DNA from: a virus
Virus record (IMG/VR): IMGVR_UViG_3300042691_006355
Span: 1-64,000 of that record
Length of the DNA stretch: 64,000 bases
Direction: 5' to 3' (one strand)
Shown: in pieces, positions 29,643 to 30,478 of the stretch
Layout of the letters: every line of letters begins with the position of its first letter
How positions within the stretch are numbered: the stretch's first letter is position 1
Made by a program: the position numbers and the translations under genes
The notes under the pieces: generated by a model
Told to the model about the DNA's origin: nothing
The model's input: only the letters and a program-made list of their open reading frames with translations
The model's database searches: none

Positions 29643-29703
29643 AGAGTTTTTACCCTATATGGGGGCTAACCACAGAACCCTAACTGTAACTATAACTCTA
29701 AGT

Positions 29704-29785
29704 AGTCAGGGCAGGACTCGAACCTGCACTAGCCCTGGTATTCACCATATTAAATTAGGACCATGTTACATTACACCACCTGACT
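29704..29785 (-). tRNA. tRNA-like gene with an enlarged (20-nt) anticodon loop, possibly a pseudogene
   Basis: On the - strand: perfect 7-bp acceptor stem AGTCAGG/CCTGACT, D stem GTGT/ACAT with a 6-nt loop, a 5-bp stem GTCCT/AGGGC at the anticodon-stem position, a 4-nt variable region, and a perfect T arm GCAGG-TTCGAGT-CCTGC. The loop closed by GTCCT/AGGGC is 20 nt instead of 7, so no anticodon can be assigned, and the D loop lacks one of the conserved GG. No CCA is encoded. Either 13 nt were inserted into a former tRNA, or the element has another use. Confidence 0.55.
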
Positions 29786-29917
29786 ATATTGCTTGTCTTT
29801 CCAAGCTGTCACGATTTTCCTAGTGTCAGACAATTGTTTTGCCTCTCATTACCTTACTAGTTTTGGGGAGTGTCTACCTGATTACACACATCCATTCCAC
29901 CTTGCAGGGGAAAATGT

Positions 29918-29988
29918 AGTTCCACCTGGACTCGAACCAGGAATACAAGCTTAGAAGGCTAGTGTTATATCCCTTTAACTATGGAACT
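29918..29988 (-). tRNA. tRNA-Arg (anticodon TCT)
   Basis: On the - strand: acceptor AGTTCCA/TGGAACT (7 bp), D arm GTTA-loop-TAAC, anticodon stem CTAGC/GCTTG with one T-T mismatch, loop CTTCTAA giving anticodon TCT (reads AGA, AGG), and T arm CCTGG-TTCGAGT-CCAGG (5 bp). CCA is not encoded. AGA is the dominant arginine codon of the phage genes, so the tRNA would help late translation. Its first 10 nt overlap the end of the endonuclease gene. Confidence 0.85.
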
Positions 29989-30392
29989 AATAAATAATCT
30001 TTTGCTAAGTTAATACCTTTTGTTTGATTGTTTTTACTTTCTTCAACTCTTAGAGTTACTGTTTTATCAAACTGTGAAGGTATAACATAGTATACTTCGT
30101 TGCTTTCTGGACAATATATGGCAAGTAAATCAATAAGAGACTTATCTACTGCTCTTGTATGAACACCATGTGAGTCAGAGTATGAACTTGAAAAGGATAC
30201 AAAAACAGATCCTTTTCTTAATGTTCTATACTTAACAGAAACTCTCATTAATGTACCGTCAGGTTTAACTGCAATTAAATCAAATGGTAAGTGTTCAGAT
30301 AATGGTAAGCATATCTGAATTCCTTTTGATAATAGATCTGCAATTACATTACCTGTGCCCTTATCTCCTTTGTCTTTTGTATGGTGTTTCAT
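29979..30392 (-). CDS. PD-(D/E)xK endonuclease of the group I intron-associated type (PDDEXK_5-like)
   Basis: 137 residues. The segment CLPLSEHLPFDLIAVKPDG.LMRVSVKYRT (about 33-62) resembles the catalytic core of I-Ssp6803I-type nucleases, with the Asp of PFDLIAV and the Lys of VSVKYR. I-Ssp6803I itself is encoded in a tRNA group I intron. Here the gene lies between a 5' tRNA remnant and a full tRNA-Arg, and its last three codons and stop are read from the tRNA-Arg acceptor region. That suits a free-standing homing endonuclease which cuts at tRNA genes. No intron RNA structure is seen around it. Confidence 0.7.
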   Translation of the reverse strand: MKHHTKDKGDKGTGNVIADLLSKGIQICLPLSEHLPFDLIAVKPDGTLMRVSVKYRTLRKGSVFVSFSSSYSDSHGVHTRAVDKSLIDLLAIYCPESNEVYYVIPSQFDKTVTLRVEESKNNQTKGINLAKDYLLVP

Positions 30393-30429
30393 AGTTAATT
30401 GTTTCTATAAAGATACAAAATAATTATGA

Positions 30430-30478
30430 GACCACCAAATACCTAATGTGTTGCTCTATCCAGCTGAGCTACGGGACC
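30430..30478 (-). pseudogene. 5' half of a tRNA gene (remnant)
   Basis: On the - strand GGTCCCG, TA, GCTC-AGCTGGATA-GAGC is a perfect tRNA acceptor 5' strand and D arm, continuing into ACACATTAGG. No matching anticodon stem, T arm or 3' acceptor (CGGGACC) follows; instead the sequence passes into the leader of the endonuclease gene. It looks like a tRNA cut off after the D arm or within the anticodon arm. Confidence 0.65.

Follow-up and report, generated by a model that had tools for sequence, protein, structure and literature searches.

The DNA analysed here, called the window below, is a stretch of 64,000 nucleotides (positions 1 to 64,000) of the IMG/VR virus record IMGVR_UViG_3300042691_006355 (64,267 bp). 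It had no near match among phage records and, since the record contains terminase, portal and GroEL genes, it belongs to a tailed phage. Comparison with related genomes identifies a unit of about 544 bp on the minus strand of the window as a mobile element, inserted in the anticodon loop of a resident tRNA-Arg(UCU) gene and made of a 52-nt leader, a 137-aa endonuclease and a complete tRNA-Arg(UCU). Very probably, we are dealing with a homing element of compact size, directed at the tRNA-Arg(UCU) anticodon loop and carrying its own repair. Judged by genome comparison, it represents a new form of homing endonuclease mobility, in which a tRNA gene is replaced instead of spliced.

The resident tRNA-Arg(UCU) is present in the window as an orphan 5′ half (30478-30445, minus strand as are the other features of this region; GGTCCCGTAGCTCAGCTGGATAGAGCAACACATT). 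It is broken after position 33, in the anticodon loop, and followed by non-tRNA sequence. A preliminary description, drawn from the letters of the window and its open reading frames (ORFs), had already seen a tRNA 5′ half starting at 30478, and its end can now be placed at 30445. The left end of the element is formed by the leader (30393..30444, AGGTATTTGGTGGTCTCATAATTATTTTGTATCTTTATAG...), near-identical in all aligned copies; a 29-nt stretch of it was matched exactly in 6 viral contigs, the same six that were found by the protein search reported below. The leader contains a putative Bacteroidota-type promoter (30409..30439, TTTG-N20-TATCTTT). This TTTG-N20-TAnnTTT motif, which we take to resemble the Bacteroidota promoter consensus, is equally spaced in the window and in L229, a further locus of this type (TTTG-N20-TATATTTG); when the leader is shuffled by mononucleotide, about 0.7% of the sequences obtained also match it. 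The endonuclease gene (29979..30392) is assigned to the PDDEXK_5 family, I-Ssp6803I-like, by its PF11645 profile and predicted structure. Its ORF ends with ...VP*, and the stop codon TAG (29981-29979) coincides with nucleotides 8-10 (U8-A9-G10) of the carried tRNA-Arg(UCU) (29916..29988, detected by ARAGORN, 61 bits with Rfam). The overlap of the last codons with the first bases of the tRNA, pointed out in the preliminary description, is thereby located to the base.

A protein search of IMG/VR with the endonuclease yielded six loci (L001-L006), all of them with the arrangement of the window, including an identical break point and overlap. Two (L001 and L002) are of the window's own phage type, and the other 4 of the 6 have different flanks. 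As the arrangement recurs in these six loci and in L229, it does not result from chance. In alignments with the window, similarity set in at the orphan half's anticodon loop (TT/AGGTATTTGG...) and was continuous across the leader, the ORF and the tRNA, and the flanks of L003-L006 outside the unit were unrelated to those of the window. The window primase, encoded next to the element, was absent from the records of L003-L006, which are fragments, and from that of L229. Since the outer flanks of L003-L006 differ from the window's and its primase is absent there, we concluded that the unit had moved as a block.

Empty sites were found as well. In relatives of the window, retrieved via the neighbouring primase (99% identical in L139), the genes on either side are the same two, and the tRNA-Arg(UCU) that they enclose is intact (L139, L197, L140-L142 and others). 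In L139 the sequence 3′ of the tRNA, TTAGAGTTATAGTTACAG, is the one that resumes in the window at 29701, where the resident right flank (29690..29701, TTAGAGTTATAG) directly follows a tRNA 3′ end, as it does in L139. The flanks of L003-L006 are likewise shared with contigs in which the tRNA is intact (L116, 93% to L006; L097, L102 and L108). The PDDEXK_5 gene is absent from the cognate site in L139, L140, L197, L116, L097 and L102, and where present it interrupts the tRNA. The comparison with relatives advised in the preliminary description has thus produced intact counterparts, and its proposal that an I-Ssp6803I-type gene broke a tRNA gene agrees with them. Empty relatives have one tRNA-Arg at the site and not two, which ruled out an ordinary gene lying beside a resident tRNA.

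The insertion point falls after position 33, between 33 and 34 (...ACACATT^TCTAATGTGT). In L003 and L005 the resident 3′ half is kept after the element, and the insert measures 544 bp in both. Joining the flanks gave a perfect tRNA-Arg(UCU) for L005 (ARAGORN), and for L003 a tRNA with anticodon UUU, owing to one substitution. L229, whose protein is 56% identical, has the layout of the window with both resident halves flanking the element. No integrase or recombinase was found in the 544-bp unit, in which the endonuclease ORF fills most of the length and leaves no room for one. The homing endonuclease gene (HEG) sits inside the tRNA-Arg anticodon loop without intron or intein, in the manner of intronless homing, and the loop would be its cleavage target. 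Genome comparison is the basis for the insertion site, the length of the unit, its presence or absence, its transfer as a block, the identity of the replacement isoacceptor and a crossover within the tRNA, to which we now turn.

The tRNA overlapping the endonuclease gene had at first been regarded as a resident gene that happened to serve as terminus. This view has to be abandoned: the tRNA travels with the endonuclease and is the same isoacceptor, tRNA-Arg(UCU), as the broken resident tRNA that it replaces. Because copies recur at unrelated loci, and lie between both resident halves where these are kept, this second tRNA is part of the element. Its 5′ half is near-invariant among copies and its 3′ half variable; that of L004 is identical to the native tRNA of its empty relatives (TTTCTGGTTCGAGTCCAGATGGAATCAC), from which we concluded that a crossover occurred inside the tRNA. 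With respect to native targets, the D-stem is changed (GTTA/TAAC, against GCTC/GAGC), and so is the anticodon stem. Such differences in the D and anticodon arms fit immunity, the replacement tRNA being probably uncuttable. Of the 522 Arg codons in the window's long ORFs, 386 are AGA, about three quarters, so that the loss of tRNA-Arg(UCU) would probably be costly. The element is apparently rendered harmless through its substitute tRNA, rather than by excising itself as introns do.

The same observations bear on a simpler scenario, in which a free-standing HEG landed by an unrelated resident tRNA-Arg, the overlap being accidental and the endonuclease alone mobile. Many relatives indeed merely adjoin a tRNA-Arg(UCU), and T4 SegB provides a precedent in a tRNA cluster (PMC2988022). 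We nevertheless regard this as very improbable, given that the tRNA 5′ half of the window-type copies is near-identical despite unrelated flanks, that the overlap is always exactly 10 nt, and that the second tRNA stands between both resident halves in L003, L005 and L229.

The window ORF matched PF11645 (PDDEXK_5) with E=2.7e-30, in keeping with the family that the preliminary description had named for the gene at 30392-29979. NCBIfam has no model for this endonuclease, and its PHROG, 5018, is annotated ‘unknown function’. The AlphaFold model (mean pLDDT 92) had I-Ssp6803I (2OST) as its top structural match (Z 15.5, root mean square deviation 2.2 A, 131 residues), with 19% identity between the two proteins, and a profile search (A4 profile) matched 2OST at 2.8e-9. 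Residues D10, D38 and K54 were invariant in 50/50 family members. Between copies, dN/dS values of 0.14-0.26 were obtained, meaning that the endonuclease is under purifying selection. With the catalytic D and K invariant and such dN/dS values, the core does not have the inactive appearance that the preliminary description had considered as an objection to its own reading.

Members of the same family reside in introns at nearly the same position. These intron-type relatives, from Gammaproteobacteria, Bacteroidota, Ignavibacteriota and Acidobacteriota, have the ORF within an insert in tRNA-Arg(UCU), 631-677 nt long where measured, at CTT^CTAA, between 34 and 35. The group I motifs R (GUAGAGACUA) and S (AUAGUCC) were found in 28 of 29 loci, and joining the exons gave tRNA-Arg(UCU) in 24 of the 29. 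As Rfam did not report these introns and so could not confirm them, we name them group I-like on the R/S motifs and exon joining. Putative group I introns of tRNA-Arg-TCT have been noted earlier in Beggiatoa and Thiomargarita (PMC4853749). In the intron-type loci (among L265-L339, e.g. L274 2800-3600) the HEG-bearing intron hides the tRNA-Arg(UCU) from ARAGORN. In L282 and L326 (Paenibacillus, Cytobacillus) the endonuclease lies just downstream of an intron-bearing tRNA-Arg, not within the intron.

Given that bacterial HEGs of this family lie in group I-like introns of this very anticodon loop, and that L003 and L005 retain both exons, the window unit might be taken for a group I intron that is degenerate or went unrecognised, splicing removing the entire insert from the tRNA-Arg transcript and the second tRNA being incidental. 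This is, however, the explanation to which we give the least credit. The R/S core motif was present in 0/8 window-type copies by the test that detected it in 28/29 intron-type loci, and only about 65 nt of the unit lie outside the ORF and the tRNA, which would not accommodate a ribozyme core. The window, L004 and L006 have lost the resident 3′ half, and the joined flanks of L003 read UUU. No Rfam intron family was reported at E<5 in the window stretch, a result that is weak alone as Rfam misses the relatives' introns too. The intron structure that the preliminary description had suggested looking for thus left no sign in the element, whereas the relatives on bacterial chromosomes do have introns. 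Since the group I-like introns of the latter are inserted at almost the same nucleotide, the spare tRNA appears to take the place of splicing.

How far the association with tRNA-Arg(UCU) extends was examined by pattern scans derived from a six-sequence alignment. The 37 viral and best 80 genomic loci gave 117 usable loci, a taxonomically uneven sample restricted to members with two sequence patterns in common. In 110 of the 117 (88 of 94 clusters at ~90% identity), from Bacteroidota to mycobacteria, a tRNA-Arg(UCU) was found, either interrupted by the insert or intact in the vicinity. Chance proximity is very unlikely, because this tRNA usually exists in one or few copies and yet lies within a few hundred bases. 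Among the 110, the layout was of window type in 8; the endonuclease was directly upstream of tRNA-Arg in 16, several with the 10-nt overlap; tRNA-Arg was upstream in 20 (viral/phage); the two were divergent neighbours in 34, nearly all Actinobacteria; 29 were inside introns, and 3 beside intron motifs. In actinobacterial loci such as L264, L268, L278, L283 and similar, the endonuclease is divergent and ~35-320 bp away from an intact tRNA-Arg(UCU). As for the seven remaining loci, tRNA-Ser(GCU) adjoins two and tRNA-Lys(UUU) two. Family members were seen beside tRNA-Ser(GCU), tRNA-Asn(GUU) and tRNA-Lys(UUU) (L241, L251, L138; L136, L137; L250, L338). The anticodon loops of these Ser, Asn and Lys tRNAs are like that of tRNA-Arg(UCU), and retargeting via anticodon changes is possible.

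A second replacement layout was observed in cyanophage-like loci (L232, L234, L236 and L249), in which the order is orphan half ...TGCCTTCT, then TAGAACAACCG, a tRNA-Arg(UCU) of divergent sequence and the endonuclease. A remnant of this layout is present in Synechococcus phage Sf-FR1, and its relatives S-RIM32 and Sf-CH11 have a canonical tRNA-Arg adjoining tRNA-Val. Acinetobacter phage Herod shows the order of the second layout, and the intact form of its orphan half is present in P577. In SelmaRatti, a family member lies beside a tRNA-Ser(GCU) whose D and anticodon arms are unlike those of DT57C.

On a quick tree of 112 rows, built on a short alignment that leaves many branches open and does not settle the direction of layout change, the window type and the ‘endonuclease then tRNA’ loci grouped together with a support of 99, the intron types falling elsewhere. 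The clustering of layouts on this tree was strong (16 changes, against 65.6 in shuffles). Sequence comparison indicates that in a single nuclease lineage the target is kept functional by one of two means, presumed self-splicing or a spare tRNA that would be put to use. We are inclined, by a small measure, to extend the reading to a whole class: widespread, undescribed tRNA-replacing homing elements in phages and bacterial phyla, forming one lineage devoted to tRNA-Arg(UCU), occasionally to Ser(GCU), Lys(UUU) or Asn(GUU), with several ways of neutralising the damage (self-splicing introns, and a replacement tRNA downstream or upstream of the nuclease gene), as an alternative to RNA splicing.

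For the element itself, we propose the following course of events. The endonuclease, expressed from its own leader, would act on a co-infecting phage and produce a double-strand break in the anticodon region of its intact tRNA-Arg(UCU) gene. Homologous tRNA arrays of competitors had been suggested as targets in the preliminary description, and the likely ones are indeed the tRNA-Arg genes that other phages have in intact form. With the element-bearing genome as template, recombinational repair would then place a copy of the ~544-bp unit in the break, between 33 and 34. A few adjacent bases, or the 3′ half of the tRNA, would at times be converted as well, and conversion patches of this sort were seen by comparison. 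The resident tRNA ends up split and lost, and the carried tRNA-Arg(UCU), once charged and used, would keep AGA decoding. As the replacement tRNA is altered in its D-stem and anticodon stem, and the resident copy is interrupted, recutting of the genome that carries the element would not be expected. It is cleavage, tRNA charging and drive that we infer here.

The element might instead serve the phage mainly as a weapon or for marker exclusion: the nuclease would disable the AGA tRNA of competitors, the recoded tRNA would confer self-immunity, and the element would not be selfish. Such a function fits the linkage of a recoded tRNA with the nuclease in several independent layouts, including those of Sf-FR1 and Herod, as well as the need of the phage for AGA decoding. 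The element is, however, sporadic among close relatives, moves between phage groups and inserts in its own target, as homing predicts, and no evidence for selection on phage fitness was found. The weapon and homing readings overlap, and we hold a role mainly as a weapon to be unlikely.

Some observations weigh against a homing element of the kind proposed. The window protein and its nearest relatives (13/50) have S where I-Ssp6803I has the Q of its VQVK motif, and this replacement in an active-site motif may lower activity. The window itself, like L004 and L006, has no resident 3′ half, so that the insertion there rests on the comparison with relatives. Finally, many chromosomal relatives have their HEG beside an intact, canonical tRNA-Arg; in these members the target may not be the anticodon loop, or protection may be achieved otherwise.

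Downstream of the element tRNA, a 130-nt spacer (29786..29915) leads to an odd tRNA with a 20-nt anticodon loop (29702..29785, 42 bits; loop AATTTAATATGGTGAATACC), probably outside the element core. The aberrant tRNA mentioned in the preliminary description is present, at 29785-29702, and its inclusion in the same arrangement is not retained, as it is a separate, conserved phage tRNA rather than debris of the insertion. Its pattern was matched in 21 viral contigs, from which 16 distinct sequences besides the window's were extracted, and this ruled out insertion debris. The acceptor and T stems vary compensatorily between phages, which identifies the sequence as a tRNA, and the loop contains a small UGGU/RCCA hairpin. 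R/S-like intron motifs suspected in the spacer were dropped on the same ground, the adjoining stems varying compensatorily as those of a tRNA. The conserved odd tRNA, with loop CCTAATTTAATATGGTGNATRCCAGG, occurs in the window (29702-29785), in L340-L359, in L189 (4637-4722) and in L205 (2436-2521). L001, near-identical to the window, is without the odd-tRNA 3′ half, the gap beginning inside the anticodon loop (L001 3583-3700, window 29702-29760). The spacer holds a hairpin, GACAGCTTGGAAAGACAAGC, also found in L189. A hairpin GACAGCTYGGAAAGACRAGC lies immediately upstream of tRNAs in three phages (window 29786-29820, L189 4605-4636, L177 3301), with one compensatory base pair and a less exact copy in L177. 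Elsewhere in the window, a GroEL-like chaperonin is encoded by the phage at 43919-45484 (PHROG 5725, E=3e-129).

Homing endonucleases usually spare the host gene, as they reside in introns or inteins, or between genes. The present element breaks a tRNA gene and supplies a complete, altered substitute. In a literature search that covered few subscription papers and preprints, no account of homing elements that replace a tRNA was found. As to the principle, the nearest precedent is that of the mORFs of fungal mitochondria, which carry a foreign gene end (Allomyces atp6; Glomus atp6, atp9, cox2 and nad3; PMC3630166). Like our element, of which the substitute tRNA would be the counterpart of their trick, mORFs insert in a gene and supply a substitute for the displaced part; this part is, however, the C-terminal end of a mitochondrial protein gene (with a LAGLIDADG HEG in atp6), whereas the phage element brings a complete tRNA and encodes a PD-(D/E)XK enzyme.

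I-Ssp6803I resembles the element in fold, profile match and use of a tRNA anticodon region as DNA target, being specific for that of tRNA-fMet according to a passage in PMC3984707 (citing Bonocora and Shub 2001). It resides in a self-splicing tRNA-fMet group I intron of Synechocystis, whereas the element has no intron, occupies tRNA-Arg(UCU) and carries a tRNA. According to a 2014 review, every phage intron known at the time was located in a protein gene, although phages have many tRNA genes (PMC3984707); the element described here is a non-intron element that does exploit the latter. Resistance to tRNA-homing nucleases might also be a reason for the odd, divergent tRNA genes of phages.

T4 SegB, one of the free-standing phage HEGs known for intronless homing, is likewise a HEG in a phage tRNA region that is absent from relatives, with biased inheritance predicted. 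It differs in being a GIY-YIG enzyme encoded between tRNAs, which splits no tRNA and carries no replacement. Prophages and islands that integrate in tRNA genes also restore the function of the gene, by means of recombinases and short attachment sites; the element shares with them the insertion in a tRNA with restored function, and differs in having no recombinase. The bacterial tRNA-Arg(UCU) introns with HEGs, finally, share with the element the endonuclease family, in the loci surveyed here, and the anticodon loop. They restore the tRNA by splicing, and the element by supplying another gene. With one family using both solutions at nearly the same site, these can be directly compared, which bears on the origins of mobile introns.
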